64,000 bases of DNA from Enterococcus dispar ATCC 51266. Its GTDB lineage: Bacteria; Bacillota; Bacilli; Lactobacillales; Enterococcaceae. A model generated the notes under the pieces. It saw only the letters and a program-made list of their open reading frames with translations. It was not told the DNA's origin and made no database searches. Position numbers and translations under genes: made by a program. The stretch is from the NCBI RefSeq assembly GCF_000406945.1, contig NZ_KE136354.1, forward strand, positions 1,449,207-1,513,206. Direction: 5' to 3'. How positions within the stretch are numbered: the first letter of the stretch is position 1; every line of letters begins with the position of its first letter. This document shows, in pieces, positions 5,201 to 41,897 of the stretch.

Positions 5201-5473
5201 AAGAACCTGTTTTTTTTACATTTATAAAAAAAGTGATTAAATCAACCTTGATCATTGCTTTTTTTATGAAACTTTTTCATTTTTTTGTTCTTTTTAAACA
5301 AATAAAGTTTCTTTTTTATTCAATTACCTAACATTTTTGTCATTTGAAAGTAGAAAAATAATTTTATTTGCCAAGAATATCCTGAATAATTCATAGTTTT
5401 CAAAAACGCTTCAAAAACCTTGTTATAACAGTCTATTTTGTTTCGTTTATTCGCACCCTTTGGGTGTACAAAA

Positions 5474-5529
5474 AGAACCCCAATCTGCTATGGTTAAAGT
5501 GACTAAACCTAACCAAAGAAAGGGGTTCT
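5474..5529 (+). promoter_or_regulatory. Hairpin sequestering the transposase ribosome binding site
   Basis: AGAACCCC (5474-5481) pairs with GGGGTTCT (5522-5529). The right arm contains most of the transposase Shine-Dalgarno sequence (AAAGGGG), four bases before the ATG at 5534. Transcripts entering from outside would fold and hide the site, a common way for IS elements to block expression by read-through. Identical in copies 2 and 3. Confidence 0.5.
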
Positions 5530-5533
5530 CTCA

Positions 5534-6847
5534 ATGGCAACTTTACACGAAAATCGTCTACTTTTCAATTCAAATGTTACAGTATCTCACTCTGGTGGAA
5601 ATTTGTCCTCAGATTCCGGCTTAATATTAGCAAAAGAGTTCATGAACAAATTTGAGTTTAGCCAAATCTTATGTAAAAACATCCAGATTCAAGATGACCG
5701 ACTGTATCATGTTCATGAAAATGAATCTATTCTGGAACAAATCATCTTGCAGTTGATTGCAGGCTATCCTACAGATTCTTCAGCCAATATATTAGCAACG
5801 GATCCTATCTTTCAAGCTGTTTTAAGCAAAAAGCGGTTGGCTTCACAGTCATCCATTTCTCGCTTTTGGGATCGGATGTCAACAGAAAATATCGTCCAAC
5901 TACAAAAGGTTAACCAGATTTTGATTGATAAAGCACGTACGATTCGAAATACGAACGAAATGATTTTCGATTTAGATTCTACTCACAGTGATACCTTTGG
6001 AAACCAAGAAATGACCGATTATAATGCGCATTACCAGACAACCGGTTATCATCCACTCGTTGCCTTTGATGGTCTTACCGGAGACTTTCTTAAAGCAGAA
6101 CTTCGTTCTGGAAATGTCTACACCTCAAAAGGCGTCGCAGCATTTACTCGTCCATTATTTGAGCATTATCACTCTGTGACACCAGTAAGCACTATTATGG
6201 TACGTGCAGATAGTGGATTCGCAATGCCTGATTTGTATGAACTTTGTGAAGAGTACGATAGTTTGTATACTATCCGTTTGAAATCCAATCGTAATCTGTA
6301 CAGAATCGCTGAGCAATTCGTTACCATTAAGGATCATCACGATTGGAGTAAGAAAGAAGTTCATTACTATAACGCCACTTATCAAGCAAAGTCGTGGGGA
6401 AAATCCAGAAGGATCTGCATAAAATCAACCAGAGAAGCTAGTGAATTGCTTTTTAGACATGAATTCATCATTACCAATTTTTCAAAAGACGTCTCTCCAG
6501 AAATGGTTTTCCAAACGTATTCAAAAAGAGGAACGATGGAAAATTACATTAAGGAAGCAAAAAACGGCTTTTACTTGGATAAAACAGATAGCCCACGTTT
6601 TATAGAAAATCATGCTCGTATGATCGTAAGCCTATTGGCTTACAATATCGTGAACTTCATGCGAACATTGTGTTTTACCAATGAAACGAAAGGGTATCAG
6701 GTTTCTACTATTCGCTTATTTCTCTTTAAAATTGCTGGAAAGATAGTTCATTCCGGAAGAAGACAATACTTGAAATTAAGTAGTTACCATGTTTACCAGA
6801 AGTTATTTTATCGGATTCTACAAAACATTCAGGTACTGCAGTGTTAG
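5534..6847 (+). CDS. IS1380-family transposase, copy 1
   Basis: 437 residues, full length for the family. DDE-type catalytic segments are visible: FDLDSTHSD (about residue 148), VRADSGFAMPD (about 224) and GTMENYIKEAKNGFYLDK (about 336). It cuts and joins the element at its CCTGAATAATTCATA ends in the cytosol. It carries Phe in LVAFDG where copies 2 and 3 have Leu. The reading frame is intact and preceded by AAAGGGG partly hidden in a hairpin. The 205 bp after the stop hold no gene and end in the right inverted repeat. Confidence 0.95.
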   Translation: MATLHENRLLFNSNVTVSHSGGNLSSDSGLILAKEFMNKFEFSQILCKNIQIQDDRLYHVHENESILEQIILQLIAGYPTDSSANILATDPIFQAVLSKKRLASQSSISRFWDRMSTENIVQLQKVNQILIDKARTIRNTNEMIFDLDSTHSDTFGNQEMTDYNAHYQTTGYHPLVAFDGLTGDFLKAELRSGNVYTSKGVAAFTRPLFEHYHSVTPVSTIMVRADSGFAMPDLYELCEEYDSLYTIRLKSNRNLYRIAEQFVTIKDHHDWSKKEVHYYNATYQAKSWGKSRRICIKSTREASELLFRHEFIITNFSKDVSPEMVFQTYSKRGTMENYIKEAKNGFYLDKTDSPRFIENHARMIVSLLAYNIVNFMRTLCFTNETKGYQVSTIRLFLFKIAGKIVHSGRRQYLKLSSYHVYQKLFYRILQNIQVLQC

Positions 6848-7199
6848 TTGCGTTTATTGCGCCATTCAAAAAAATTCGTTAACCATTCGATAGGATGAGT
6901 GCGCCCAAAATGAGGTCTTTCTTGAACTTAATCAGTTAGCAAAAATAAATTAAACCCTTTAGAAAAATATTTTTGAGAAAAAGAACCATTGAGCATAAAA
7001 CTAAACAGATAATTATAAAATTTGGTAGTTTATAAAAAGTATGAATTATTCAGGCTTATATTTAAAAGTTAAGGAAAAAAGATGAAAAGCACAAAGAACC
7101 ATTTACGTTTCTAGCGAGAAAGTAGTCACTAGGATAAGGACTGATAACGTAATCCGGATATCAATCAACCACAAGTTTATAAAGAAGGAGAAGATTTTA

Positions 7200-7553
7200 T
7201 TGAACCAAGCTCACTACGGTTTCAACGATTTAAATGAACAAACTGACTACACCTGCCCAACTGAAGCATTAGCAAACTTGTTGGGTAAAAAATGGATTCC
7301 GCAAATTATCGAACTTTTGAACCAACAGGATATGCGCTTTGGCCAATTGCATCAAGCGATGGATGGGAGCACACCTAAAATGATCAAACAACAACTGACA
7401 CTTCTGGAACAAAATAAGATAGTGGGAAATGAGAAAGTAACAGAAAATAATATGCTGCAGTCCACTTACCATTTAACCGCCAAGGGCAAAAAATTAGCAG
7501 TAATAGTTGAGCAAATGAAAATGTGGGGACAAAGAGAACTGGTTTGTCCTTAA
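7200..7553 (+). CDS. HxlR-family (DUF24) transcriptional regulator
   Basis: 117 residues starting with TTG behind AAGGAG. It is a winged-helix protein of the HxlR/YodB type: the single conserved N-terminal cysteine (Cys19 in YTCPTE), the LGKKWIPQII helix and the KMIKQQLTLLE recognition region are all present. In this family that Cys senses disulfide stress, quinones or hypochlorous-type oxidants. A second Cys sits near the C-terminus (ELVCP), which could allow an intersubunit disulfide. It converges on the flavin disulfide reductase at 7596-8924 and shares its terminator; the pairing suggests an oxidant-response unit, though convergent genes need not be regulator and target. The 145 bp between the IS end and this gene hold nothing else I recognise. 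Confidence 0.85.
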   Translation: MNQAHYGFNDLNEQTDYTCPTEALANLLGKKWIPQIIELLNQQDMRFGQLHQAMDGSTPKMIKQQLTLLEQNKIVGNEKVTENNMLQSTYHLTAKGKKLAVIVEQMKMWGQRELVCP

Positions 7554-7558
7554 TGAAA

Positions 7559-7590
7559 AAAGGAGATGAGCAACTAGACTCATCTCCTTT
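7559..7590. terminator. Bidirectional terminator between convergent genes
   Basis: A perfect 12-bp stem (7559-7570 with 7579-7590) with an 8-nt loop, an A run on the left and a T run on the right. It serves both the HxlR gene and the reductase gene. Confidence 0.9.
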
Positions 7591-7595
7591 ATCAT

Positions 7596-8924
7596 TTATT
7601 TCAAGACATCATTCAAAGCTTCCGCCATTGTAGGGTGGGTAAATATTTGATCTCTCAACACTTTATAAGAGATGCCTGCCTTCATGGCTAATGAAATGAT
7701 ATTAATGGTTTCATGGGACTCGATGCCATATAGAGAAGCGCCTAAAATATTCTCGGTTTCTGTGTCCACGATAATTTTATACATGCCACGTGCATCTTCT
7801 GCTACTTGTGCTTTTGGAATCGCGGCAACGGGTTGTTTGAACACTTGATACTTAAAACCTTCTGCCTGCACTTGCCGTTCTGTAAGTCCCACATTGGATA
7901 GTGGCGGAGTTAAGAAAACTGTATAAGGAACTACAGCCCGGTCATTAGTCGATCGGCTGCCATCTCCGAATAATTGATCTGCAATGATACGGTAATCATC
8001 CAACGAGATATAGGTGAACTGCAGTCCGCCTTTTACATCCCCGATGGCCCAGATATTCTCAGTGGTTGTCTGCAATTTTTCATCAACCATAACAGCCCCA
8101 TTCGGCGACACTTCAATAGAAGTATTTTCTAAACCCAAACCTTCTGTGTTTGGCTTCCGGCCCGTTGCAACTAACACCATATCGGCTTCAATCACTTTGG
8201 TTTCGTTGTTTCCATAGTGGATTTCAACAGCCTCTGGATTCTCTACGACTTTAACCAACTGCTGATCCAACTCAAATTTTATACCTTGATTGCCCATGTC
8301 CTCATAAATCATAGCTGCAATATCCTCGTCTTCTCGAGGAATAAATTCTGCACGGCCATCAATCACCGTAACTTCCGAACCAAAATTCGCAAACATTGAA
8401 GCGTATTCCAGTCCAATATAGCCTGCTCCAATGATGACCAACCGATCAGGGCGTCGATCCAAGGACATGATTTCTTTAGAAGTAACCACGCGCTTCCCTA
8501 AAGTAAGCCCATCAATCGAAGGGATAATTGATGTGGCGCCGGTATTGATAAAAATTCTTTCCGCTTTGATTGTCCGTTCTGATCCATCCATCATATTGAC
8601 CAGCAGCTCATGGTCATTTAAAAAGGAAGCTTTTCCTGTCCAGACGGTAGCCGATTCTTCATCCTGAAGCATATGATAGTTTTTGTCTCTTAGTTTTTCT
8701 ATCAAGACATCTTTCTTCAGGACAGCCTGCTCAAAAGCTTCTCCTTTTTCGCCTTGAAGAATCAAAAATTTGGAGGGAATGCAGCCCACGTTGATACAGG
8801 TTCCTCCGTACATTTGGTCGGACTCTTCAATGATCAGTACCTCTTCATTATGCTTGGCTAACAGCTTCGCCAGTGTTTTACCGCCCTTTCCAAACCCGAT
8901 AATCACATTTTTATAAGCTTCCAT
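7596..8924 (-). CDS. FAD-dependent pyridine nucleotide-disulfide reductase, RclA/hypothiocyanous-acid-reductase type
   Basis: 442 residues with the full class-I disulfide reductase layout: FAD-binding N-terminus (VIIGFGKGGKTLAK), redox-active Cys43/Cys48 in GGTCINVGCIPSK, a NAD(P)H-binding GAGYIGLEYA motif in the middle, a second FAD contact (WAIGDVKGG), and the C-terminal dimer-interface motif FTHPTMAEAL with the His/Glu pair. Length and the short pre-Cys region fit the RclA/MerA-like branch, members of which reduce hypothiocyanous acid or protect against hypochlorous acid. Mercuric reductase is less likely because there is no vicinal Cys pair at the C-terminus. Start chosen at the ATG behind AGGAGG. 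Confidence 0.82.
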   Translation of the reverse strand: MEAYKNVIIGFGKGGKTLAKLLAKHNEEVLIIEESDQMYGGTCINVGCIPSKFLILQGEKGEAFEQAVLKKDVLIEKLRDKNYHMLQDEESATVWTGKASFLNDHELLVNMMDGSERTIKAERIFINTGATSIIPSIDGLTLGKRVVTSKEIMSLDRRPDRLVIIGAGYIGLEYASMFANFGSEVTVIDGRAEFIPREDEDIAAMIYEDMGNQGIKFELDQQLVKVVENPEAVEIHYGNNETKVIEADMVLVATGRKPNTEGLGLENTSIEVSPNGAVMVDEKLQTTTENIWAIGDVKGGLQFTYISLDDYRIIADQLFGDGSRSTNDRAVVPYTVFLTPPLSNVGLTERQVQAEGFKYQVFKQPVAAIPKAQVAEDARGMYKIIVDTETENILGASLYGIESHETINIISLAMKAGISYKVLRDQIFTHPTMAEALNDVLK

Positions 8925-9014
8925 CTGAATCCTCCTTTAACGATTTGTGCTATATAAAGTATACCAATAATTTCCAAAAGCTAACAATTAGGTACTTTGA
9001 AGTAACCGGGTAGG

Positions 9015-9203
9015 GTGAATTTTGATGGTTCGGGATTATATACTACTAGGTATTTGAACGTAGAAGACATCCATGAAATGAATGGAGTTTATTTATGGAA
9101 TACACAATTAAAAGCTAGTATAACGATGACAGAGAAGGAACTTGATAGGATAGTTGACACTGCTGTAAATGAGCTTACTAGGTACTACAATATTGTAAAT
9201 TAG
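9015..9203 (+). other. Short open frame, possible remnant (62 codons)
   Basis: A GTG-started frame with no ribosome binding site, encoding a segment like ASITMTEKELDRIVDTAV. It lies between the reductase promoter region and the nuclease gene, and a further protein-like stretch (PTSFKKSFAKDVKSV) follows before a stop at about 9253. This reads like debris of a larger toxin-type gene rather than a functional gene. I do not recognise the family. Confidence 0.25.
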
Positions 9204-9230
9204 TATCTCCCACATCATTTAAAAAGTCGT

Positions 9231-9953
9231 TTGCTAAGGATGTTAAATCAGTATGAAAAAAGACTTATTAGAGTTGATAGCGGGTTTGGTGAAAGGGAAT
9301 ATTGGGCCTATACAAACGAATATTGGCAATTGGTTCGGGTTGCTGCCGCAGAAATCATTTTGCAAAATACTGCCACTGAACCAGTGAATTATGACGGACG
9401 CTATTATGATGATGAAGCAAAAGTTCCGGTTACAGAGAACGCAAATCTTGATCAAGGGCATGTCATTGCCGATTCCTTAGGAGGAGTGGCCAATGCTTAT
9501 AATATTACGCCACAAGACAGTGTGCTGAATCGTCACGGGGACCAGGCTTATATGGAACGAAACATTGTACAAGCAGGTGGGGCCACTAATTTTGAGGCGA
9601 TCATTACCTACCCAGATACAACTACACAAGTTCCGAGTCATTATAGGTACACGTATACGATTAATGGGTATCAAGTAGTAGATGAGTTTCAAAATATTAA
9701 CCCGGATGAATATAATGCAGCACAAGGATTAACAGGAGAGGGCAGCTCGCCTTCTGACGGCTCCGGAACAGCAGCATTCGCTGCGCCCACCGAGACTGCT
9801 GGAGGAGATGTATCTGCTGTAGATACGAACGGAAACGGACAAGTCACAATCCAAGAAGCAAAAAACGCGGGATATGCTATGCCCATTTATAGTGATCATT
9901 GGTTGTATCAGTACATGGATGACCGAGATGGGGATGGGCAAGTCGGAGAATAG
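9231..9953 (+). CDS. DNA/RNA non-specific endonuclease-type protein with C-terminal Ca-binding-like repeats
   Basis: 240 residues. The core (about 50-170) matches the beta-beta-alpha-metal nuclease family: NLDQGHVIADSLGG, with His77 as the expected general base in a DQGH variant of the usual DRGH, then NITPQDSVLNRHGDQAYME carrying the metal-binding Asn and Glu. The C-terminus has two EF-hand-like loops, DTNGNGQVTIQE and DRDGDGQVGE. Such nucleases are normally secreted or are toxin domains. No signal peptide is present in this frame, but a different frame starting at 9253 encodes MKKDLLELIAGLVKG-like sequence, so the true N-terminus may have been lost to a frameshift. Start therefore uncertain. 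A terminator follows. Confidence 0.65.
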   Translation: MLRMLNQYEKRLIRVDSGFGEREYWAYTNEYWQLVRVAAAEIILQNTATEPVNYDGRYYDDEAKVPVTENANLDQGHVIADSLGGVANAYNITPQDSVLNRHGDQAYMERNIVQAGGATNFEAIITYPDTTTQVPSHYRYTYTINGYQVVDEFQNINPDEYNAAQGLTGEGSSPSDGSGTAAFAAPTETAGGDVSAVDTNGNGQVTIQEAKNAGYAMPIYSDHWLYQYMDDRDGDGQVGE

Positions 9954-9983
9954 CTATCTTAATAAGTACAGGTTCATAAAATC

Positions 9984-10030
9984 AACTCCCTTTGAAACAT
10001 CTCATTCAGGTGATTCAAAGGGAGTTTTTG
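9984..10030 (+). terminator. Rho-independent terminator of the nuclease gene
   Basis: A 12-bp stem (9984-9995 with 10015-10026) followed by a T run. About 30 bp past the nuclease stop. Confidence 0.85.
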
Positions 10031-10258
10031 TTATAAAAACCCACTGATATCAAGGTTTACAGCCATTCTCGTTACACAATCCGGGAATGCAGGATAAAAA
10101 TAGGAAGAACCAGGCCGTAATAGGTTACATTATGATTTTTGAATTTTGAAAATACAAAAAGCCAGATATTTCTATCCGACTTTTCTAGCAAATTCAGAAT
10201 GGTTTCACTCATTTGTTTCTATTCTGAAGAAACCGTATAAAAATGCATGAATTCTGTT

Positions 10259-10465
10259 TTATAAAAAAAATCTAATAGTGTAGTTAAGATTTTTTTTTAT
10301 TGAATATATAAGCAGCCAACAAACCGTGTATATTAGAATACCAATAATAGTTATTGAAAAATTATTATTGGTCGACAAAGAATTTTTGCTTAAAATAATT
10401 AGAATGAAAATAATGACTTTCAAGATGCTTTCTTCCCAAGATGATATTAAGTTTTTTTTTTTCAT
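10259..10465 (-). CDS. Small two-helix membrane protein (candidate immunity partner)
   Basis: 68 residues, strongly hydrophobic apart from the Lys-rich N-terminus, with two likely membrane helices (about 15-27 and 38-55). A strong AGGAGG site is followed by two ATGs in different frames (10469 and 10465), just before a run of 11 A. The 10465 frame is the long one; the other ends after about 34 codons, so slippage on the A run could switch frames. It lies 32 bp downstream of the secreted-protein gene at 10498 on the same strand, the usual position of an immunity gene next to a bacteriocin gene. That role is an inference from position and topology only. Confidence 0.45.
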   Translation of the reverse strand: MKKKNLISSWEESILKVIIFILIILSKNSLSTNNNFSITIIGILIYTVCWLLIYSIKKNLNYTIRFFL

Positions 10466-10497
10466 TCATTAATTCCCTCCTACATTTAACTCTTATA

Positions 10498-11271
10498 TTA
10501 ATAATAATAGACTATTTTTTGCCCTATTAAGTTTGTTCTGCTACTATTTGAGTATTGCTTTATAGTAACCCTTTCGCCCATTATAGTAGGGACAGGAGTA
10601 GAATAATCAAAAATCCTATACACATCTTCAGAATTATATACATAGGTTAGGTTCATAGAGTAGGCCATAGCTGCAACTTCGATTAAGTAAGCTGATATTT
10701 GCGCATATACATGTGGAACATAACCAAGTGACTTTGAAATTGCGAGTGCTATTGCTCCCACAGTCAATCCTTTTGCATAGGTACTTGTTTTAAATGTCTT
10801 TAAGTATTCCCAATTGCTATCCATAAAAGGGGTAACTCGGTTATCCGCTGATCGTTTTCCAGTATCTTTTTCAACTTCTCCCAACTCAATATTTTGACTA
10901 AATTCCTCACCATAAAAAATTCCCTCTTGATATAAGGAGTTGTCTATTAGCTCTGTTTTAATTATGGACACTGTTATGGGAGTGTCAGACTCTTTTATTT
11001 CATAGGTAGTGGTTTCCACTTTCCCAGATTTAAAGTCAATTTTCTCAATTGTTTGATAGTTCATATTATCTTTTGAATAGTTATAAACTATTTCTGTAGT
11101 ACTTTGTCTTACAAATTCGAAATTCGTTATACTTTCATTAGTTTCTTCAAAAGTATTTGCCACACTTTCTAAATTATTTTGAGCAGCAGATACTGTAGTA
11201 GATGTGGTTAAAATTGGTGAAGCGACTAATGTAACTATAAAACCTATAGTTATAAATTTTGATAATTTCAT
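10498..11271 (-). CDS. Secreted protein, possibly geobacillin-26-like
   Basis: 257 residues from the ATG at 11271, chosen because GGAGGG sits 8 bp upstream; an upstream in-frame ATG at 11286 has no site. An N-terminal signal peptide ends around VSAAQNN. A beta-rich, acidic region follows (to about 140). The C-terminal part has an Ala/Gly-rich amphipathic stretch (KGLTVGAIALAISKSLGYV) and a Tyr-rich tail ending KIVYYY. The layout reminds me of the geobacillin-26 family of large heat-labile bacteriocins, but I can show no signature motif, so this stays tentative. A perfect cre site lies 146 bp upstream and a tiny membrane protein follows in the same orientation. Confidence 0.5.
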   Translation of the reverse strand: MKLSKFITIGFIVTLVASPILTTSTTVSAAQNNLESVANTFEETNESITNFEFVRQSTTEIVYNYSKDNMNYQTIEKIDFKSGKVETTTYEIKESDTPITVSIIKTELIDNSLYQEGIFYGEEFSQNIELGEVEKDTGKRSADNRVTPFMDSNWEYLKTFKTSTYAKGLTVGAIALAISKSLGYVPHVYAQISAYLIEVAAMAYSMNLTYVYNSEDVYRIFDYSTPVPTIMGERVTIKQYSNSSRTNLIGQKIVYYY

Positions 11272-11416
11272 ATCGATACCCTCCATATCTAAATAGTACT
11301 ATAGAAAAACTGATAGATATTGAACATGGATAATATTGCTTAATTACATGTTCAAATTAACCACTTTGATGCATAAATTTTTATATACTCCTCCTCTCCA
11401 TATTTTTAACAAAAAA

Positions 11417-11430
11417 TGTTAACGCTTACA
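11417..11430 (-). promoter_or_regulatory. cre (CcpA) site upstream of the secreted-protein gene
   Basis: The minus strand reads TGTAAGCGTTAACA, a perfect match to TGWNANCGNTNWCA. It lies in the leader region of the gene starting at 11271, suggesting catabolite control. I could not assign -35/-10 boxes with confidence. Confidence 0.6.
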
Positions 11431-11718
11431 TATAAAGTGTAACATACAGCAGCTAAATTATTACCAAATATCCATAAATGAATATTCGGTGTCTATCCTA
11501 TTAATTTCTTATGTAATGAAAAAGACTTACTTTGGCACCTATAATTATACCCGTCAGTATTTTCAGTAAAACTATACTATCAGATAAGTTTAGCTGTCGA
11601 ACTAATTCTTGCGCTCATTTACTTAATCAAACGTTACAATATACAGATGCAGTATTTCTTAATCGTTTACATATCTCTTCTCGCTTAAGCATAATTATAT
11701 AACACTAAATATAGCGTG

Positions 11719-11750
11719 ATACAAAATAGTCATATACGACTATTTTGTAT
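11719..11750. repeat. 13-bp perfect inverted repeat
   Basis: Perfect 13-bp arms (11719-11731 and 11738-11750) around 6 bp, just past the end of the Fic-like gene. There is no T run on either side, so an operator or recombination site is as likely as a terminator. The rest of 11431-11718 shows no gene or motif I recognise. Confidence 0.5.
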
Positions 11751-11785
11751 TTGGGAAAGTGCTATAAAAATCATACAGACTTTTC

Positions 11786-12379
11786 TTAGAGCATTTCTAT
11801 TGTTTTCAAGTAGACTTTATAGTGAGCACTTCCGCTTAAAAATTTTCCAATGTTCATTAGTATACGTCCTCTGCGTCCATCCCCAACTGAAAACGGATGG
11901 ATCCCTTCGAGTTGATTATATTTATCTAAAATACTCTCTAACTTCTCTTCTTCAGTAGCTGCATTCTCCAACCGGTATTCTAGGTTATACACCAACTGTT
12001 GAATAAGAAATGGCGTTTGCGATAGCGAAGCAGTTTGGAATTCTGCACCTATAATCATGTTTTTTTTCTTTTTGAATTGGCCTTTATCATATTGAAGGCG
12101 ATCGGTTAAATCAGCATGAATCTCTTTGATAATGGCCACAGAAAGTTTATCATTATTCTCTAAATGATCCAATAGATTAGAAAAAGCTATTTTATGATTT
12201 TCAATTTCGTAAAATTCACGTACAGTTGCCCCACCGCTAACTGGCAGTATGCCATTCAAAATAATTGAGACTGTCGCAGGCAATGATATCGTATTTCCTT
12301 CGATCCCTGCTGAGTGGTGAGCAAGACGTACCAACATATCATCTAAATAGTCTTGTGGTATTTTTTTTAAACAAATCAT
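11786..12379 (-). pseudogene. Fic-family protein, C-terminally truncated and with altered active site
   Basis: About 197 residues from the ATG at 12379 (GGAGA 8 bp upstream). A longer frame reaching 12619 runs through a palindrome and a GC-rich block and is not protein-like. The class-II inhibitory motif is present (SAGIEGNT, about residues 18-25). The catalytic loop reads HPFSVGDGRRGR where active Fic AMP-transferases have HPFxxGNGRxxR or HPFxDGNGRxGR; the His is kept, while the metal-binding acidic residue and the Asn are changed. After MNIGKF the sequence leaves the family pattern and stops about 20 residues later, removing the C-terminal helices. Fic proteins usually AMPylate target proteins, often as toxins. 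This copy is probably inactive. Confidence 0.6.
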
Positions 12380-12490
12380 ATGGCTTCTCCAATAATAAAA
12401 ATAAGTTTCTACTATCAAATAATATAAAATAAAGTTGACTAAACACACTAAGTATACTAGCAGAGGAGAGGGAATGAGCAAGTGAGCAGA

Positions 12491-12539
12491 GTTGTACTCT
12501 AATTCACTAAAAAATTTTTTTAGTGAATTAGAGTACAAC
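12491..12539. repeat. Perfect 24-bp inverted repeat with 1-bp centre
   Basis: Arms 12491-12514 and 12516-12539 are exact complements around one T. The centre is A6/T7, so it could act as a terminator in either direction, but 49-bp near-spacerless palindromes are unusual. It separates the Fic gene from the GC-rich block. Confidence 0.85.
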
Positions 12540-12540
12540 A

Positions 12541-12770
12541 TGCTTATGCAAGTCCGTTCTAGCGTCGGATCGGTCAGTCGCGTGTTTCGCATCTGTATGC
12601 GTCGGTGTCTTTTCAACACACCTGAAACCCTCTTAAAATCCTCCCTAAGAGCATTGTTTCCGGTTACCGGGCTTTCGGCCCAGGATTACCACCCCCGCCG
12701 TTTACGGCCGCGGACGCCATTCGGGGAGAGCATGCATACAGTAATGCTCTTGATCCCCTAGCATTATTTA
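12541..12770. other. GC-rich structured block of unknown identity
   Basis: About 230 bp with markedly higher GC than its surroundings and several short hairpins: GGGC-TTTCG-GCCC near 12670, CCGTTTACGG near 12700, and AGAGCAT-N10-ATGCTCT near 12728-12751. No convincing reading frame on either strand. It lies where plasmids with this partition type often keep a replication gene or its control region. It could be a structured RNA or the remains of a replication or transfer origin; I recognise no named family. Confidence 0.45.
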
Positions 12771-12853
12771 TTGCAGCGGCTAATGCTTAACCTTTCCACT
12801 TCGTTTCTAAATTAATAGATCGCTGCTTGGCTCCAACGATGTTAAAAAAGCCT

Positions 12854-12882
12854 TTGCCATTTGTCCAGGTGCTTGGTATAAT
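12854..12882 (+). promoter_or_regulatory. Strong promoter of a short transcript
   Basis: TTGCCA (12854-12859), a 17-bp spacer, then a perfect TATAAT (12877-12882). No coding region follows before a terminator 32 bp later. Confidence 0.7.
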
Positions 12883-12888
12883 GACAGT

Positions 12889-12944
12889 ACATAAATCGTG
12901 AGTTATGTTTTGTCCTGCGAACGCCAATTCGTGGGGCTTTTTTT
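12889..12944 (+). ncRNA. Candidate small regulatory RNA (about 56 nt)
   Basis: A strong promoter is followed, after about 25 nt, by a terminator hairpin (CCTGCGAA with TTCGTGGG, two G-U pairs, 12914-12935) and a seven-T run. A transcript this short cannot encode much and fits a plasmid antisense or counter-transcribed RNA. A minus-strand 20-codon frame (12956-13018) points towards the same terminator, but it is not hydrophobic and does not resemble an Fst-type toxin. Confidence 0.5.
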
Positions 12945-13082
12945 GTATTCAATTTTTAACCTCTATCAAACCTTATAAGATACTCACAGAAAGCTTCTTC
13001 AATATTTTGAATACTCATAAAGTTACCTTAACCTAACTTATTTTGTAAGTAAACCCTTTAATGCTCCTCAAAACTACACAAG

Positions 13083-13400
13083 AGTATACTGGTATACCAA
13101 AATAACTATACAAGAGTATACCAGTATACTTCCGCGTAGTTATTTTTAGGTCAAATCACTCTCGCGAAATTTTAAATCGCCTATATAACTTGTTTTCATT
13201 TCCTTTCATTCCGGAATACAAAATACACGTAAGTATACCAGTATACTTACGCACCAGTATACTAAAAAAACTATGCAAGAGTATACTGGTATACTCTTGC
13301 ATATATTACATTTCTGTTACATCCTTACAAAAGTATCTTTCAAATGAGTATACCGTTGCATAGTTTTTTATGAATGGTATAATCTATACATGAGTATACT
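13083..13400. repeat. Palindromic repeat cluster (AGTATAC..GTATACT), candidate centromere/operator
   Basis: Four full 16-bp sites of the form AGTATAC-YR-GTATACY (13083-13098, 13115-13130, 13232-13247, 13280-13295) and three half sites (13254-13263, 13347-13354, 13393-13400). Two are extended palindromes: 12-bp arms at 13275-13300 and 11-bp arms around 13232. The last two half sites flank the parA promoter. This is the expected arrangement of a partition site bound by the small protein encoded after parA, which would also repress parA. Enterococcal pheromone-plasmid repB/repC-type modules likewise carry 8-bp repeats here. Confidence 0.75.
13356..13383 (+). promoter_or_regulatory. parA promoter
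   Basis: TTGCAT (13356-13361), 16-bp spacer, TATAAT (13378-13383), bracketed by AGTATAC half sites at 13347 and 13393. The parA start codon follows GGAGGG at 13427. Confidence 0.7.
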
Positions 13401-13426
13401 ATTGAATATTTTTCGGAGGGACATAC

Positions 13427-14245
13427 ATGGACGGAAAAGTATATGTTGTAGGAAATTTTAAAGGTGGCGTAGGAAAAACAAAAGTCGTCACAATGTTAGC
13501 GTATGAAGCAGCCACACAATTTAAAGATCGCACTTTAGTAATCGATTTGGATCCACAAGGGAATGCCACACGTGTCTTAGCCAAAACGGGTAATATTGAT
13601 AATATAGATAAATCTATTACTGACGGATTTCGTGTAGGTAATTTAGAGAATGAAGTCATATCCATTATGCCTAAACTTGATTTGATACCAGCCAATACTT
13701 CCTTCAGGAACTTAACAAAAGTATTGTTCGAAAAGTTTCCAGAAGATGAGATTTCTCAAATTTCTTATTTAAAAGAGTTAATCAAACCGTTGAAAGGAAA
13801 ATACGATCGTATTTATATTGATGTTCCACCTACCATTTCGGATTACTCAGACAATGCAATGATGGCAGCAGACTACTGTATTATTGTCTTACAGACGCAA
13901 GAATTATCATTAGATGGCGCGCAGACATATATCGCTTATATGCAGTTTCTCTCTGAAAAGTACAACGCACATTTGCAAGTACTGGGAATCATTCCTATGA
14001 TGTTACGACAGGGAGGACGTGTTGATACAAAAGTCCTCGATCAAGCAAAAGAAATGTATGGGAATAATGTATTGGGAACAATTGTAAATTACCAGGAACG
14101 CTTGAAAGTTTATGACGTGGAAGGTATCCATGTAAACAGAAATATCAGTGGAACTATAGAAATGTGGGACGGAAAGGCACACCAATTATTCATAGATGTT
14201 TTGACAGAGCTAGATGAACACGAAAGGTACTTGGAAAGCATTTAG
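13427..14245 (+). CDS. parA: ParA-family partition ATPase
   Basis: 272 residues. The deviant Walker A motif KGGVGKTK sits at residues 12-19 with the signature first Lys, followed by the switch region VIDLDPQGNATR (about 40) and YDRIYIDVPPTISDYSDNA (about 125), the Walker B-type segment. ParA ATPases bind DNA non-specifically and move or hold plasmid copies via a centromere-binding partner. The next gene (14276) and the upstream palindromic repeats supply the other two parts. Organisation and size match RepB/PrgP of enterococcal RepA_N-type plasmids. No replication initiator gene is visible nearby. Confidence 0.88.
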   Translation: MDGKVYVVGNFKGGVGKTKVVTMLAYEAATQFKDRTLVIDLDPQGNATRVLAKTGNIDNIDKSITDGFRVGNLENEVISIMPKLDLIPANTSFRNLTKVLFEKFPEDEISQISYLKELIKPLKGKYDRIYIDVPPTISDYSDNAMMAADYCIIVLQTQELSLDGAQTYIAYMQFLSEKYNAHLQVLGIIPMMLRQGGRVDTKVLDQAKEMYGNNVLGTIVNYQERLKVYDVEGIHVNRNISGTIEMWDGKAHQLFIDVLTELDEHERYLESI

Positions 14246-14275
14246 ATTATTATCGCGTAGGAAAGGAGTCGTTTT

Positions 14276-14686
14276 ATGAGTAAATCATTTGAACCACTTA
14301 TCAAAAAGAATAAGAATAGCCTACTAGAAAAAAATGTCAGCATTAAAGGAACCAATGAATTCGATCGGACACCCCTTCGGCCTATTATAACGCCCTCAAA
14401 AATAGACAGACCTTCTGAGCAAAAAATAGAACAACAATCACAAGAAAAAAGTATTCCAGATAATTTTTTTAAGGCTACAAAAACCGCAAAGTTATCACCC
14501 GACGTATTACTTCGATTAAATACTTTGAAACCATTTATTGAAGAGTTAGAAGAGACAGATAAGTCTACAGTTAATGATATGATGCAAATGCTGATTGAAT
14601 GTTATGTGAATACACGACTCACTACTCGTCAAAGAGAAGGATATAATCAAATGTATGCTCACCTTTTTGAGCACTCAAAAAAGTAA
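14276..14686 (+). CDS. Small partition partner protein (RepC/PrgO-like position)
   Basis: 136 residues, starting 30 bp after parA behind AGGAG. The N-terminal 65 residues are Lys/Gln/Ser-rich and probably disordered. The C-terminal half (about 66-130) is helical: KLSPDVLLRLNTLKPFIEEL and a segment STVNDMMQMLIECYVNTRL resembling the helices of ribbon-helix-helix or ParG-type proteins. It probably binds the AGTATAC repeats, contacts ParA through its N-terminus, and represses the operon. I recognise no specific family, and the function is inferred from position. Confidence 0.65.
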   Translation: MSKSFEPLIKKNKNSLLEKNVSIKGTNEFDRTPLRPIITPSKIDRPSEQKIEQQSQEKSIPDNFFKATKTAKLSPDVLLRLNTLKPFIEELEETDKSTVNDMMQMLIECYVNTRLTTRQREGYNQMYAHLFEHSKK

Positions 14687-14960
14687 AGCTTCTGATAAAT
14701 ATGCCCTACACTTAATCAAAAGCATGGATAACTGTCAATAAGCACCTTATGATGCGCAGTGCTCTTATTTAAGAGTATCCGAGACAAAGGAAGTTTGAAA
14801 TTCTTTATTCCTTAATACGTATTTAAAAGTAAACATTTTATCACTACTAATGACTAACTTATGATTCTGTAATTCAGTGAAAAAAATATTTTTGACTCAG
14901 CCTAATTCGTTAAAGGTAAGTCTAAAGTTATTTTTCCATGAGCATAAGGAGGTCACTCCG
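14687..14960. other. Non-coding stretch after the partition operon
   Basis: No reading frame with a ribosome binding site, no clear terminator and no recognised repeat. Confidence 0.4.
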
Positions 14961-15524: not shown

Positions 15525-15566
15525 AAAGCGACTCTTTCTACTAGACCAGAAAGAGTCGCTTTTTAT
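15525..15566. terminator. Terminator, probably bidirectional
   Basis: A perfect 15-bp stem (15525-15539 with 15548-15562) and 8-nt loop. The T run is better on the plus strand, but the nearest gene end is that of the minus-strand ATPase at 15615. Confidence 0.8.
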
Positions 15567-29332: not shown

Positions 29333-29335
29333 GGT

Positions 29336-32519: not shown

Positions 32520-32544
32520 CTTGTTTTCCTCCGTTTGTTTTCGT

Positions 32545-35566
<3,022 letters not shown>

Positions 35567-35573
35567 ATTTATA

Positions 35574-35601
35574 AGTATAACAGAAAAAATTTCGCATCAA
35601 A
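35574..35601 (-). promoter_or_regulatory. lacZ operon promoter
   Basis: TTTGAT (35596-35601), 16-bp spacer, TATACT (35574-35579) on the minus strand. The divergent AraC gene has a TATAAT at 35626-35631 without a good -35. Confidence 0.6.
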
Positions 35602-35662
35602 CTATATAATCTACCCTATCCATGTTATAATGTGTACAAAATTGAAATAAGCGAGGAGAAAA

Positions 35663-36484
35663 ATGAAGTTATTATGGAAACATTATAAACCGTCTAATTC
35701 AGATTTGAATGTCATTGAATGCGGAATTGAACAATTTTATCTTAATCTGACTTATGATTACAAAGTTAGGCAAGAATTTGTAATACACTATATTGAAGAA
35801 GGTGAAGGCTTTTTTATGCTGGATAATAAAAAAGTCGAGTTGAAAGCCGGAGATGGATTTATTTTGCGGAAGGGAATGGTTCCGAAATACGGCACTAGGA
35901 AAGAAAATCCTTGGAAGTATTACTGGGTTGGCGTGAGCGGTGAAAAAGCACTGGAATACTTGATGCGTTCATCTGTCTTAAATTCCTTTGGCTTTACTTA
36001 TCCAGATTCTTCGCAATCTCCTGCCATCATCAAAGATATTTGCGAAATTTCTATGAATGAAACGGAATATTTGTCGAGTGACTTGAAGAAACTGGCTAAG
36101 CTGTATGATTTGACTTATGATTTGATTGCTTCTTTCCCCTCTGATTATTCTGAAAAAAATCTCCAGCTTGCTTTTCCACTGCAAGACGCAATTCTTTTCA
36201 TGAATGAACATTACAATGAAAAAATCGCGATTACCGAAATCTCCGCCCATGCCAACATCAGCCGCAGCTATCTTTATAAATTGTTCATGCGCTATACATT
36301 CCAGACTCCGCAAAGTTATCTAATCAATCTGCGTTTATTCAAAGCTTCTATTTTGTTGAAGAACACTCCGCAAACTGTCAAAGAAATCGCCCTACAAGTC
36401 GGCTATTCCGACCCATTTGTCTTTTCGCATGCTTTTAAAAAGAATTACGGCGTTTCACCGAGCGAGTATCGGATGCATCCTTAG
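35663..36484 (+). CDS. AraC-family transcriptional regulator
   Basis: 273 residues: an N-terminal cupin-like sugar-sensing domain (about 10-90, FVIHYIEEGEGFFML) and two C-terminal helix-turn-helix motifs (about 175-273; ITEISAHANISRSYLYKLF and VKEIALQVGYSDPFVFSHAF). It is divergent from lacZ with a 133-bp shared control region and is probably the operon's substrate-responsive activator. Start behind GAGGAG. Confidence 0.88.
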   Translation: MKLLWKHYKPSNSDLNVIECGIEQFYLNLTYDYKVRQEFVIHYIEEGEGFFMLDNKKVELKAGDGFILRKGMVPKYGTRKENPWKYYWVGVSGEKALEYLMRSSVLNSFGFTYPDSSQSPAIIKDICEISMNETEYLSSDLKKLAKLYDLTYDLIASFPSDYSEKNLQLAFPLQDAILFMNEHYNEKIAITEISAHANISRSYLYKLFMRYTFQTPQSYLINLRLFKASILLKNTPQTVKEIALQVGYSDPFVFSHAFKKNYGVSPSEYRMHP

Positions 36485-36638
36485 AGTTGCTTCTTAAAAA
36501 CTTTGAAAACTTCCTGTCTGCTTCTAAAATAATTTATTTTGCGTATAATGAAATCACACAAAATAAAACAAACAGCTTCACCTATCTGTTCGAAGCAAAA
36601 TCCAATCAAAAAAGATAGAAGAAAAAGGAGGGGAGGTT

Positions 36639-36984
36639 TTGCAAGAAGTAGAAGACACAAGAATGGGAACAGAGCCTGTCTCTGGGTTGATGTTTTCTTT
36701 GGCGCTGCCTTCTATTTTGGCGCAAGTCATCAATATTCTTTACAACATTGTGACCGGATGTATATCGGCCACATTCCTGAAGTCGGTGCTTATGCTTTGA
36801 AGGGATTGGGAATCAGTGTGCCGCTTTTGCTGATTATTTCCGCTTTCAGTATGCTGGTCGGCGGAGGCGGAGCGCCTTTAGCTGCGATTGCCTTGGGGAG
36901 GAAAGACCGGGAAGAAGCAGAGAGGATTTTGGGAGCCGGGACTTTTTTTCTGACTGTTCTTGGTATTTTTTTGCCCATTATTAT
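36639..36984 (+). pseudogene. MATE-family efflux transporter, truncated and frameshifted
   Basis: A TTG start at 36639 follows GGGGAGG. The product opens TEPVSGLMFSLALPSILAQV, then INILYNIV, and continues in another frame as RMYIGHIPEVGAYALKG. One G is missing at about 36751, where the family reads NIVDRMYIG. The gene is cut after about 115 codons by an IS1380-type terminus at 36985. MATE proteins export drugs or cations with Na+ or H+; this one cannot work. Confidence 0.8.
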
Positions 36985-37222
36985 CCTGAATTATTCATAC
37001 TTCTAAATTCCCTTTATTTATTTGGGAAAATCGTTGGTTTTCTTGTTTATCAGGGATTTCCGGATGAGAATCGCGCCGTTGGCGCAAAATGTACCTATTT
37101 TTTCGGAACGCCAGGAAATTCTTCCGAATTTTGGATGCAAAGATCCCTTGGAACCGGTGAAGTTTTTAAAAATTCAACTGTGCATGGCTTTTACCAACGG
37201 AGCTGTTGGATTTTATCCAAGA
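36985..37222 (-). mobile_element. IS1380-family end fragment
   Basis: Starts CCTGAATTATTCATACTT and runs parallel to 26046-26275 (TTGGGAAAATCNTTGG, GCGCAAAATGTACC and GGAGCTGTTGGATTTTAT are shared) up to about 37222, where similarity fades. Only the 3' end of the decayed subtype is present. Confidence 0.75.
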
Positions 37223-37507
37223 GGCGGAGGCTTTTCTCGGCTTCCGTTCTAAGTAAAAAACGTTCTTATCCTAAGCTCCTCATTATAGCATGAGCGGACA
37301 AACAAAAAACGCATAAAGTAGAAATTATTCGCGCCTTTTTAATTATTTTGTTGACAGTTGATCGTTAGCTACACCGTTTAGTAATTGCCAACATTTCTTA
37401 CACAATCGCGCCCAACCCGGAACAATTTAAACTCAACTAACTTTATGATAAGTTGAATAGTTCTATTGTCTCGAAATAGATAGCTCTTATGTGCCTTAGT
37501 ACTTTTC
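37223..37507. other. Non-coding stretch
   Basis: No supported gene, promoter or terminator. Confidence 0.4.
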
Positions 37508-38074
37508 TCAGCTCTCAATTTGTTTAATAAAATATTCTACAGTTGATTTTTCTTGCCATTGCTGAATAGTAGAGGCATCTAAATGAACGAATGGCCCATC
37601 TTCAACTATTAGGTATTCTCCATCCTGCGAACCGACCCCACCTGCTTCAACATGTTTTTCTATTTTTTCATAATGCATGGTAATCGCGTTACGGACTTCT
37701 TCACGCGCTGTAATGTAGCTTTCTGTTTCTTCATTTGGGATGAGATACGTATCAACTTGTGTCATACCTTCTACACGTCCTTCGACCTCACCTATAATAG
37801 GCAGCTTATCCCAAATGAAAAGTTCAATTCGCCCATCATCAGGAGTAAACATATATTTTGTAAAAGGATAGCGGCTTCCTTTCCACACAATTTCCTCATA
37901 GAGCGGCAAATCCTCGTAATTCATCGTATAGGTTACAAATTCTTGCCCTCCAAAAACTTCACTTTCTTTACGAACATAAGGAAGTGCTTCAATCCATTCT
38001 TTCGCTTCCTTTTTTTCTCTAAACAAACCCACTGTATGGCGTCGATCTCCTTGTTGTAATTCTACTAAATACAT
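37508..38074 (-). CDS. Hypothetical protein
   Basis: 188 residues from the ATG at 38074 (GGGAGGAAT upstream; an earlier in-frame start at 38113 is unsupported). Acidic, soluble, no signal peptide. It has an antiparallel beta feel (MYLVELQQGDRRHTVGLFRE, YLIVEDGPFVHLDAST) but I recognise no family. It stands alone between the IS fragment and the pyruvate oxidase terminator. Confidence 0.65.
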   Translation of the reverse strand: MYLVELQQGDRRHTVGLFREKKEAKEWIEALPYVRKESEVFGGQEFVTYTMNYEDLPLYEEIVWKGSRYPFTKYMFTPDDGRIELFIWDKLPIIGEVEGRVEGMTQVDTYLIPNEETESYITAREEVRNAITMHYEKIEKHVEAGGVGSQDGEYLIVEDGPFVHLDASTIQQWQEKSTVEYFIKQIES

Positions 38075-38316
38075 AGTGATTCCTCCCGGTATGTTTTCTT
38101 CTAGTCTACACACCTTAATTTTTCTGTCTAGTTAATTGTAGCCCATCCAACGAATACGTTCATTATGTAAATAACTGTCCTTTAAAATTATATGTCTTTA
38201 CGCGAATAGATAATTTAAAACAAAGGATAGAAAATAGAATCATATATGGTGGTGTAGTTTTGACAGATAAAAGAAACAGTAGAAAACGACAAAGTTCTTT
38301 ACTAAATCTGCCTAAC

Positions 38317-38358
38317 AAAAAAGGCAAGTCACTATAACATAGCGACTCACCTTTTTTA
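38317..38358 (-). terminator. Terminator of pyruvate oxidase
   Basis: AAAAAAGG with CCTTTTTT and an inner AGTC/GACT pairing. The T run faces the minus-strand gene ending at 38386. Confidence 0.7.
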
Positions 38359-38385
38359 TTAAACTATAAGTTGTACATCAAAAAA

Positions 38386-40167
38386 TTATTTAGCTACGAT
38401 AGATTCTAGACCTTCAGCTTTTAGGTACTCGCTAAATGGTACTAATTCTTCAGCTTCATATTTTTCTTTGTAAGCTTTGATTTCTTCTGCGCTGTACAAT
38501 GCAGGGTCTAATTTCAATGTTTCTACTGGAATTGGACGATCTTTAGTGATCTTAGCATCGATTACAACTGTTTTACCTTCTTTGTTAGCTTTAATAGCTT
38601 CAGCCATTACTTGATCCATGTCTTCGATACGGCTTACTGTGAAACCAACAGCACCTTGTGCTTCACCAATTTTAGCGTAGTCTACATCAGTAAATTCAGT
38701 ACCGAAAGTATTTGTGTTTGTATCTTCGTATTTGTTCTTGATGAAACCATACTCAGTGTTAGTGAATACTACGTTGATAACAGGCATGTTGTAACGTACG
38801 TTAGTAACAACATCTTGGTAGTTCATAGAGAACGCACCGTCACCCATTAAGTTAAATACTTGACGTCCAGGGTAAACATTATTCGCTGCAATACCACCTG
38901 GAAGTGCGATACCCATTGAAGCAAACAATGGAGAAGTTCTCCACATGTTTTTAGGAGTCATGTGCAAGTGACGGATAGATGTTTGAGTTGAGTTACCAAC
39001 ATCAATTGAGTAGATTGCATCTTCGTCAGCATATTTGTTGATAGCGTTGTATACTTGATAAAGTTGTAAAGCACCAGATTCTTTAGTTTCCAACTTAGTC
39101 ATGTAGTCATGCCAGTTTTGAACGTTTTTCAAGTTAGCATTCCACCAAGCTGATTCTTCAACAGGTGCTACTTTTTCTAGTAATGAATGAACTGCTTCAC
39201 CAGCATCACCAAGAATAGCAACATCTGCGTTATGGCGTTTACCAAGCATTGTTGGGTTGTTGTCGATTTGGATGAATTTTTCAACGCTTCCGAAAGTATT
39301 TTCTACTTCAGCAAACGGGAAGTTTGAACCAACGAAAAGAACTGTATCTGCTTCTCTAACAGCTTCGTTAGCTGGTTTCCAACCAACACGGTATGTTGAA
39401 CCAGTTAATCCTTCAAAGTCATAGTCGAAAGTTTCAAAGTTTTTACCAGTTGTGATAACTGGAGCTTTTAATTTACGAGATAATTCTTGGACTGCTGGAC
39501 CGTGTCCCATAGTTCCGATACCTGCATAGATAACAGGTCGTTTAGCGTTGTTTAACACTTCAACAGCTGCGTCGATATCTGCTTCATTGATTGCAGAAGA
39601 AACGTAATCACGGTAGCTGTGACCTGAAGAGTAGAATGCGTTGTTAGCAATTTCATGGTAACCGAAGTCGCCAGGTACTTCTAATACGGCTACTCCACGT
39701 TTAGAGATAGCAGTACGGATTGCATCGTCAATCAATTTTGGTAATTGTTCAGCGTAAGCAACACGACGGTTATATACTGCAATATGATCAAACATTGGAT
39801 TTTGGTTCAATTCTTGGAACGCGTCCATATTCAATTCTCTTTGAGGGCGAGATCCTAAAATAGCTAAAACTGGTGTATTATCCATAGCTGCATCGTAAAG
39901 ACCATTGATTAAGTGAGAAGCACCAGGACCACCTGATCCAACACACACACCTAGTTTCCCTCCGAATTTCCATTGCATTACAGCTGCCATTGCTCCAACT
40001 TCTTCATGTTTTACTTGAAGGAATTTAATATCTGTCTCTTCTTGTTCACCTAAAGCTTCCATTAAAGGGGCTAAAGTTCCCGAAGGAATTCCATAAATTG
40101 TGTCTATTCCCCATCCTGCTAACACTTTTAGTGAAGCTGTACTAACTTTAATTTTTCCATCTGTCAT
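38386..40167 (-). CDS. pox: Pyruvate oxidase (TPP/FAD enzyme)
   Basis: 593 residues, normal for Pox5/SpxB. N-terminal PYR domain with the TPP-activating Glu in [11 protein letters not shown], central FAD-binding domain (about 190-340), C-terminal TPP/Mg motif [16 protein letters not shown]. It converts pyruvate, phosphate and O2 to acetyl phosphate, CO2 and H2O2 in the cytosol. Acetolactate synthase is the nearest alternative, but length and the Pox-like C-terminus argue against it. The start follows AGGAGG. IS copy 3 ends 56 bp upstream, 8 bp from a TATACT -10-like box, so the native -35 has been replaced. Confidence 0.9.
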
Positions 40168-40223
40168 TCAAATGATCCTCCTAGAGATTAATTTCACAAA
40201 AAAATTCCAAGTATAATCTTACC

Positions 40224-41897
40224 CCTGAATAATTCATAGTTTTCAAAAACGCTTCAAAAACCTTGTTATAACAGTCTATTTTGTTTCGTTTATTCGCACC
40301 CTTTGGGTGTACAAAAAGAACCCCAATCTGCTATGGTTAAAGTGACTAAACCTAACCAAAGAAAGGGGTTCTCTCAATGGCAACTTTACACGAAAATCGT
40401 CTACTTTTCAATTCAAATGTTACAGTATCTCACTCTGGTGGAAATTTGTCCTCAGATTCCGGCTTAATATTAGCAAAAGAGTTCATGAACAAATTTGAGT
40501 TTAGCCAAATCTTATGTAAAAACATCCAGATTCAAGATGACCGACTGTATCATGTTCATGAAAATGAATCTATTCTGGAACAAATCATCTTGCAGTTGAT
40601 TGCAGGCTATCCTACAGATTCTTCAGCCAATATATTAGCAACGGATCCTATCTTTCAAGCTGTTTTAAGCAAAAAGCGGTTGGCTTCACAGTCATCCATT
40701 TCTCGCTTTTGGGATCGGATGTCAACAGAAAATATCGTCCAACTACAAAAGGTTAACCAGATTTTGATTGATAAAGCACGTACGATTCGAAATACGAACG
40801 AAATGATTTTCGATTTAGATTCTACTCACAGTGATACCTTTGGAAACCAAGAAATGACCGATTATAATGCGCATTACCAGACAACCGGTTATCATCCACT
40901 CGTTGCCTTAGATGGTCTTACCGGAGACTTTCTTAAAGCAGAACTTCGTTCTGGAAATGTCTACACCTCAAAAGGCGTCGCAGCATTTACTCGTCCATTA
41001 TTTGAGCATTATCACTCTGTGACACCAGTAAGCACTATTATGGTACGTGCAGATAGTGGATTCGCAATGCCTGATTTGTATGAACTTTGTGAAGAGTACG
41101 ATAGTTTGTATACTATCCGTTTGAAATCCAATCGTAATCTGTACAGAATCGCTGAGCAATTCGTTACCATTAAGGATCATCACGATTGGAGTAAGAAAGA
41201 AGTTCATTACTATAACGCCACTTATCAAGCAAAGTCGTGGGGAAAATCCAGAAGGATCTGCATAAAATCAACCAGAGAAGCTAGTGAATTGCTTTTTAGA
41301 CATGAATTCATCATTACCAATTTTTCAAAAGACGTCTCTCCAGAAATGGTTTTCCAAACGTATTCAAAAAGAGGAACGATGGAAAATTACATTAAGGAAG
41401 CAAAAAACGGCTTTTACTTGGATAAAACAGATAGCCCACGTTTTATAGAAAATCATGCTCGTATGATCGTAAGCCTATTGGCTTACAATATCGTGAACTT
41501 CATGCGAACATTGTGTTTTACCAATGAAACGAAAGGGTATCAGGTTTCTACTATTCGCTTATTTCTCTTTAAAATTGCTGGAAAGATAGTTCATTCCGGA
41601 AGAAGACAATACTTGAAATTAAGTAGTTACCATGTTTACCAGAAGTTATTTTATCGGATTCTACAAAACATTCAGGTACTGCAGTGTTAGTTGCGTTTAT
41701 TGCGCCATTCAAAAAAATTCGTTAACCATTCGATAGGATGAGTGCGCCCAAAATGAGGTCTTTCTTGAACTTAATCAGTTAGCAAAAATAAATTAAACCC
41801 TTTAGAAAAATATTTTTGAGAAAAAGAACCATTGAGCATAAAACTAAACAGATAATTATAAAATTTGGTAGTTTATAAAAAGTATGAATTATTCAGG
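40224..41897 (+). mobile_element. IS1380-family element, copy 3 (1674 bp)
   Basis: The same ends and length as copies 1 and 2. Left flank TTACC, right flank AATAT; the right flank equals the left flank of copy 1, while its own flanks do not match. Confidence 0.95.
40377..41690 (+). CDS. IS1380-family transposase, copy 3
   Basis: 437 residues, same protein as copy 2 (LVALDG form). Frame intact. It is divergent from pox, with the IS left end between them. Confidence 0.95.
   Translation: MATLHENRLLFNSNVTVSHSGGNLSSDSGLILAKEFMNKFEFSQILCKNIQIQDDRLYHVHENESILEQIILQLIAGYPTDSSANILATDPIFQAVLSKKRLASQSSISRFWDRMSTENIVQLQKVNQILIDKARTIRNTNEMIFDLDSTHSDTFGNQEMTDYNAHYQTTGYHPLVALDGLTGDFLKAELRSGNVYTSKGVAAFTRPLFEHYHSVTPVSTIMVRADSGFAMPDLYELCEEYDSLYTIRLKSNRNLYRIAEQFVTIKDHHDWSKKEVHYYNATYQAKSWGKSRRICIKSTREASELLFRHEFIITNFSKDVSPEMVFQTYSKRGTMENYIKEAKNGFYLDKTDSPRFIENHARMIVSLLAYNIVNFMRTLCFTNETKGYQVSTIRLFLFKIAGKIVHSGRRQYLKLSSYHVYQKLFYRILQNIQVLQC

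Follow-up and report, generated by a model that had tools for sequence, protein, structure and literature searches.

Plasmids can become part of a chromosome when an insertion sequence (IS) on the plasmid recombines with an IS in the chromosome, as in integration of the Hfr (high frequency of recombination) type. Within the IS1380 family, one report describes the fusion of plasmids via homologous recombination at ISEcp1 (PMC8859459). A second report describes transposition: ISEc9/ISEcp1, a member of the same family, carried a plasmid fragment of 36,130 bp into the chromosome, at a non-coding position and with a repeat of 5 bp, and the target duplication of the family is given as 4–5 bp (PMC12116815). 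Here we analyzed a 64,000-nucleotide stretch of Enterococcus dispar ATCC 51266 (contig NZ_KE136354.1, positions 1,449,207 to 1,513,206; the window, to which coordinates refer unless another contig is named), in which copies of an IS1380-family element bound a plasmid-derived block of 36,517 bp in the chromosome (34,843 bp minus one IS). Insertion of a plasmid-derived, IS-bounded island into a chromosome is a familiar type of event, of which the block is a new instance, with unusually clear marks in the duplications at its flanks. Two models lead for its arrival, one by recombination and one by transposition, and both put the same pentamer, AATAT, at its outer ends.

The IS is 1,674 bp long and three copies of it lie in the window, all in the same direction and 0–1 mismatch apart: copy 1 at 5381-7054 (+, with the transposase at 5534-6847), copy 2 at 24195-25868 (+) and copy 3 at 40224-41897 (+), the spacing between successive copies being 18,814 and 16,029. 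Copies 2 and 3 are the same in sequence and copy 1 deviates at nucleotide 687 alone (T in copy 1, A in copies 2 and 3). The transposase scored 372 bits against NF033539 (IS1380 transposase, cutoff 180), and the terminal inverted repeats (15-bp ends CCTGAATAATTCATA) and the 5-bp duplications are likewise those of the IS1380 family. The flanks (left/right) are AATAT/CTTAT for copy 1, TATAA/CAGAA for copy 2 and TTACC/AATAT for copy 3; no copy in the window has matching flanks of its own. Direct reading bears out a preliminary description of this DNA, which had noted AATAT on both outer sides and no matching flanks on copies 1 and 3. As in a composite transposon, two IS copies surround the cargo and the duplication is present at the outer ends only (5376-5380 and 41898-41902). 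Outside the block, the genome (2.82 Mb, three contigs) contains three further full copies of the IS, all solitary and all with a perfect 5-bp duplication (AAATA/AAATA, ATAGT/ATAGT and TTTAC/TTTAC). When the left and right flanks of the six copies were compared in a 6 × 6 table (36 pairs), full 5/5 matches were found in four pairs: each solitary copy with itself, and the left flank of copy 1 with the right flank of copy 3. A given flank pair would match by chance with a probability of 0.0024 when local DNA is sampled and of 0.0076 when flank composition is used, and any of the nine flank pairs of the window with one of 0.02 to 0.07, so the AATAT match is suggestive when judged from sequence alone.

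We searched each flank of the block against 59 genomes, nine congeners among them. Good matches to both flanks were present in 4 of the 9 congeners, side by side in G001, G004 and G008 and on two contigs in G009. The congener closest at the locus, G008, has an empty site: its left flank is 88% identical to the last base of the flank, the homology to the right flank restarts 250 bp on, and the stretch reads ...GCTAATAATATTTCTTCAA..., with one AATAT at the junction compared to one at each end of the block in the window (junction GCTAATAATATTTCTTCAACTTT in G008, GCCAAGAATAT at the left end and AATATTTCTTCAATATTT at the right end in the window). Because G008 has a single AATAT where the window has two, the AATAT pair enclosing the block (36,517 bp) is a genuine target duplication. 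The empty site decides this point and also supplies the related genome joining the two flanks without the block that the preliminary description had asked for. G001 has a 231-bp gap at the site and no block, with a divergence too great to place AATAT. In G004 the site holds 2.9 kb of other DNA, which contains an open reading frame (ORF) with a long SEP-rich repeat and an LPXTG-like end as in surface proteins.

The block itself was not seen in any of the nine congeners. Searches of these with the DNA between copies 1 and 2 (segment A, 7055-24194), the DNA between copies 2 and 3 (segment B, 25869-40223) and the IS, in which five candidates were scored per genome, yielded no long match to either segment (E ≤ 1e-30) and did not find the IS (E ≤ 1e-100). 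Segment A had matches of 0.4–1.3 kb at 65–70% in 5 of the 9, and segment B a plasmid piece of 102–111 bp at 95–99% in 3 of the 9. Neither the 59 genomes nor 2 further ones showed the block at another location. A relative in which 7055-40223 is syntenic chromosome without the IS copies, named in the preliminary description as evidence against it, was not seen among the nine congeners. A chromosomal segment that had merely gained IS copies was rejected as an explanation, since segments A and B were found neither at the locus nor as long matches in the nine congeners, with five candidates scored per genome. A related possibility is that the region is old chromosome into which IS copies inserted here and there, and that the AATAT match around it is due to chance. 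The probability of 0.02–0.07 for a 5-bp match among nine pairs leaves some room for this, and the preliminary description had itself warned of coincidence; however, the single AATAT at the empty site of G008 and the failure to find A and B in the nine congeners, beyond short or weakly similar matches, make a chance match very improbable, and on the G008 site, provided that its alignment is right, we reject it.

Judged by the relatives of its sequence, the block is a mosaic of plasmid pieces plus metabolic cargo. The preliminary description had proposed a ParA partition module with repeats, and this plasmid-type module is present: a ParA ATPase (13427-14245, +; PrgP-like, below cutoff), a small protein beside it that is its probable partner (14276-14686, +; no Pfam match, kept beside ParA in Carnobacterium/Jeotgalibaca plasmids) and, upstream of parA, GTATAC-rich inverted and direct repeats (13060-13413) that probably function as the partition site. 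The ParA protein is 100% identical to its copies in Trichococcus collinsii DSM 14526 and T. pasteurii DSM 2381. Two T. pasteurii contigs, C28 (11862-13262) and C12 (13257-18041), match at 91–95% and both end in the repeat region upstream of parA, and 13257-17511 has a 95% match in T. collinsii, on a contig of 4.6 kb; these contigs may or may not be plasmids. Circular plasmids of Carnobacteriaceae (pWNCR47, pCAR50 and a Jeotgalibaca plasmid) match 12457-14686 at 72–75%. The gene for a Fic-domain protein (11786-12619, −) belongs to the segment common to T. pasteurii at 91–95% (11862-13262), which also contains a perfect inverted repeat of 24 bp whose arms are one base apart (12491-12539). A DNA/RNA non-specific endonuclease gene (9231-9953, +) is 90% identical to contig C28 and 89% identical to a Carnobacterium maltaromaticum plasmid. 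Contig C28 also carries a diol/glycerol dehydratase operon, and the parA module of C12 appears to lie next to the end of C28; the published 1,3-propanediol trait (PMC6950789) may be plasmid-borne.

Other pieces are of the Enterococcus plasmid type. A C-terminal fragment of Lgt with adjoining DNA (22673-23217, +) is 92% identical to E. faecalis plasmids. The 5′ part of a Spaf_1101-family ATPase gene (23306-24194, +), truncated at TATAA by copy 2, is 89.8% identical to E. gilvus pCR1B, in which the homologue runs on beyond TATAA; the fragment scored 243 bits against NF045781, below the cutoff of 475, as expected for a fragment. To the right of copy 2, a 111-bp piece (25869-25979, +) that in plasmids lies upstream of a tyrosine recombinase gene is 94–99% identical to the Enterococcus/Vagococcus plasmids listed and matches 283 records. 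Both the Spaf_1101 gene and this piece (99% over 103 bp) have homologues on pCR1B, and one E. faecalis plasmid has both 22673-23217 and the piece. These relatives bear on whether the block grew stepwise, with one IS at AATAT followed by at least two separate IS-bearing circles (18.8 kb and 16.0 kb) in turn. Copy 2 does split the block into two IS-bearing lengths (18,814 and 16,029), and the G+C content differs (0.377 in segment A versus 0.38–0.45 in segment B). However, copy 2 has pieces of Enterococcus-type plasmids to its left as well as to its right, and the two homologues on pCR1B suggest one donor lineage. We therefore regard stepwise growth as improbable.

How, then, did the block reach the chromosome? 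We favor, with a probability of about 0.5, the explanation that a circular plasmid-derived molecule recombined with a resident IS at AATAT. The intergenic AATAT between the genes for a PcsB-like protein and a glutathione peroxidase would first have been occupied by a solitary IS1380-family element, and a plasmid-derived circle would already have carried the same IS twice. A RecA-type crossover between an IS of the circle and the resident IS would then have integrated the circle, so that 34,843 bp of plasmid mosaic plus IS came to separate one half of the resident's duplication from the other. A resident IS is plausible because solitary copies with their own duplications occur in the chromosome (3/3). 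Moreover, copy 1 shares its T at nucleotide 687 with the three solitary copies and with one copy on an E. faecium plasmid; a resident with T and a plasmid with A that crossed over to the right of this nucleotide would be expected to leave T in copy 1 and A in copies 2 and 3. The plasmid relatives of several segments also speak for this explanation, and the published plasmid fusion at ISEcp1 (PMC8859459) gives it a precedent within the IS1380 family. The preliminary description had proposed such an integration of a circle into a single resident IS. Its single AATAT-marked insertion, the empty site, the plasmid-derived content and the idea of exchanged flanks are all supported, whereas the recombination between circle and resident IS is inferred, as are the circular form of the donor, an IS already in place and a homologous crossover in preference to the work of the transposase.

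Integration of a circle also meets difficulties. The flanks of the donor IS would be unmatched (TTACC/CTTAT), so that an earlier IS–IS rearrangement would be needed. A whole plasmid should have brought an initiator, yet neither RepA_N nor Rep_3 was found in the block, an objection softened because pCAR50 and pWNCR47 also lack RepA_N. Finally, no free counterpart of the whole block was found among plasmid records. A possible alternative, which we hold tentatively, is that the whole block transposed as a unit, with the transposase acting on the outer ends of copies 1 (left) and 3 (right) and inserting the block at AATAT; the weights of these two leading models were set by judgement and not by computation. 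Unit transposition predicts the same outer AATAT, requires no initiator or relaxase (RepA_N, Rep_3 and MobA/L were not found in the block) and has a precedent in the 36,130-bp plasmid fragment moved by ISEc9/ISEcp1 (PMC12116815). CTTAT and TTACC would be the donor-site flanks of two different IS copies, with no extra event, and the loss of the donor's duplication that the preliminary description had assumed is unnecessary under this alternative, although it is required by the recombination model. On the other hand, the published case used DNA acquired by transformation, at 2.7e-8 transformants per recipient (PMC12116815), and unit transposition gives no particular reason why copy 1 and the solitary copies have the T allele in common.

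Similar considerations arise for copy 2. TATAA is native to the Spaf_1101 gene and CAGAA to the region upstream of the tyrosine recombinase; two IS insertions on a plasmid like pCR1B may therefore have recombined and left copy 2 with its unmatched flanks. On pCR1B both native sites are present in opposite orientation, so recombination would give an inversion; only one of its two products is seen here. The DNA following copy 2 was also compared to the right end of the IS. Copy 2 and the next 170 bp (24195-26038) are bracketed by TATAA on both sides (second TATAA at 26039-26043) and end in CTATTACTATTCAAG, which is like the true right end of the IS at 8/15 positions overall and at 7 of the last 8 bases. 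A right-end-like neighbor occurs at 1 of 18 TATAA sites in 25869-40223 (background frequency 0.00035 per position), and the same scan gave nothing comparable for copies 1 and 3. Conceivably this Gram-positive IS moves neighboring DNA in the manner of ISEcp1, in which case the block could be a giant transposition unit and 24195-26038 a one-ended unit; we hold this reading, too, no more than tentatively. The same IS sits in TATAA/TATAA in the E. faecium plasmid examined; TATAA is a favored target of the IS, and the TATAA repeat after copy 2 is therefore weaker evidence than it appears. In addition, the sequence past the second TATAA is not Spaf_1101 but the end of a decayed second IS1380-type element (IS-B, 26044-27460, −; right limit approximate), which is 71–75% identical to the active IS where alignable.

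The missing plasmid functions were sought in several ways. Inside the block 68 ORFs were listed, many of them overlapping (41 of at least 60 amino acids in segment A and 27 of at least 80 amino acids in segment B), and 27 of the 68 were scanned against Pfam. No replication domain, integrase or resistance gene was found among those scanned, and the ends of the block are IS ends with an IS-type duplication; an integrase of its own and att sites at its ends, as expected of an integrative element, were thus not found. Rep_3 was found nowhere in the genome, and RepA_N not in the block but once in the genome, at C1:1722725-1722949, ∼232 kb past the block. This RepA_N initiator, a 333-amino-acid frame on the main chromosome contig, perhaps marks another integrated plasmid. 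Separately, contig C2 of the genome has its closest match in an E. casseliflavus plasmid (82% covered, 94.8%). The Jeotgalibaca plasmid searched alongside has RepA_N. Because the related pCAR50 and pWNCR47 are also without it, an unrecognized initiator in the block is possible, perhaps within the shared parA region. These two circular plasmids (50 and 47 kb) have in common with each other mainly parA/partner/Fic, a glutamine amidotransferase and two recombinases, and their initiator may be of an undescribed type. The MobA/L relaxase (PF03389) was absent from all four genomes searched, that of the window included; other relaxase families and the origin of transfer (oriT) were not searched for. 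As 14690-15600 also had no match among plasmid records (E ≤ 1e-3), the oriT-like region of the preliminary description was not confirmed. Its suggestion that 7055-40223 might exist as a free plasmid likewise found no counterpart: no plasmid record has the whole block, and the best megablast coverage in one place was 5% of segment A and 13% of segment B, the latter being a group II intron. A more sensitive plasmid search with 9000-15620 reached 29% of this 6.6-kb query.

The remainder of the block includes the metabolic cargo. Segment A begins with an HxlR regulator (+) and a flavin disulphide oxidoreductase (−) like RclA/MerA-type reductases (7200-8924; below curated cutoffs), and further contains an AAA_14/DUF4143 ATPase (15615-16862, −; Pfam) and a gluconate-type cluster (18378-21923, substrate inferred) with an FGGY kinase (−), a 6-phosphogluconate dehydrogenase (−) and an RpiR regulator (+), 72% identical to genome G040. 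In segment B, the group II intron with LtrA (27458-29308, −) is 89% and 83% identical to Lysinibacillus and Peribacillus plasmid copies, the best among the matches listed. It is followed by a sugar-type ABC transporter, a GH2 beta-galactosidase and an AraC regulator (29336-36484; Pfam scan). The G+C content is 0.45 in the intron and lactose part versus 0.35–0.37 in the flanks. Next come a MATE gene fragment (36539-37223), interrupted by a 240-bp end of IS-B, and an SpxB-type pyruvate oxidase (38386-40167, −; TIGR02720 859 bits, cutoff 638; 86% to G040). The IS-B remnants in 26044-27460, beside the intron, and in 36985-37223 have ∼240 bp in common at 92%.

The locus shows cleanly how an IS can bring a plasmid partition module and sugar-utilization operons into a chromosome, and the exchanged duplications, together with a relative that has the empty site, open the route to testing. 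Given direct repeats of 1,674 bp that are nearly identical, the block is predicted to be still able to leave as a circle, whole or as its 18.8-kb and 16.0-kb halves, and an IS that is 99% identical is present on enterococcal plasmids. On E. faecium vanA plasmids (e.g. pEF0656-2) this 99% identical IS has the 5-bp duplication TATAA, but its setting differs from that in the block; on pEF0656-2 it is flanked by TATAA left and right and has a predicted vanR gene nearby. The Carnobacteriaceae plasmids pCAR50, pWNCR47 and pMA1X17-3 share with the block ParA, the small partner, the Fic gene and the upstream repeats, at 70–75% DNA identity. pCAR50 and pWNCR47 have no other DNA match to the window except the IS1380 of pWNCR47 itself, and the Carnobacterium plasmids have the Fic gene on the opposite side of parA from the block and T. 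pasteurii.

In Hfr-type integration and in plasmid fusion at ISEcp1 (PMC8859459), one IS is likewise replaced by IS–plasmid–IS, with direct repeats and with the original flanks outermost. That fusion was seen between plasmids in the laboratory, whereas here the event is deduced from a single chromosome, in which there are three IS copies and no initiator was recognized. In the transposition by ISEc9/ISEcp1 (PMC12116815), one IS end and an imperfect right end were used, while the block is bounded by two complete IS copies; the two cases are nevertheless alike in the IS family, the ∼36 kb of plasmid DNA, the non-coding target and the 5-bp duplication.

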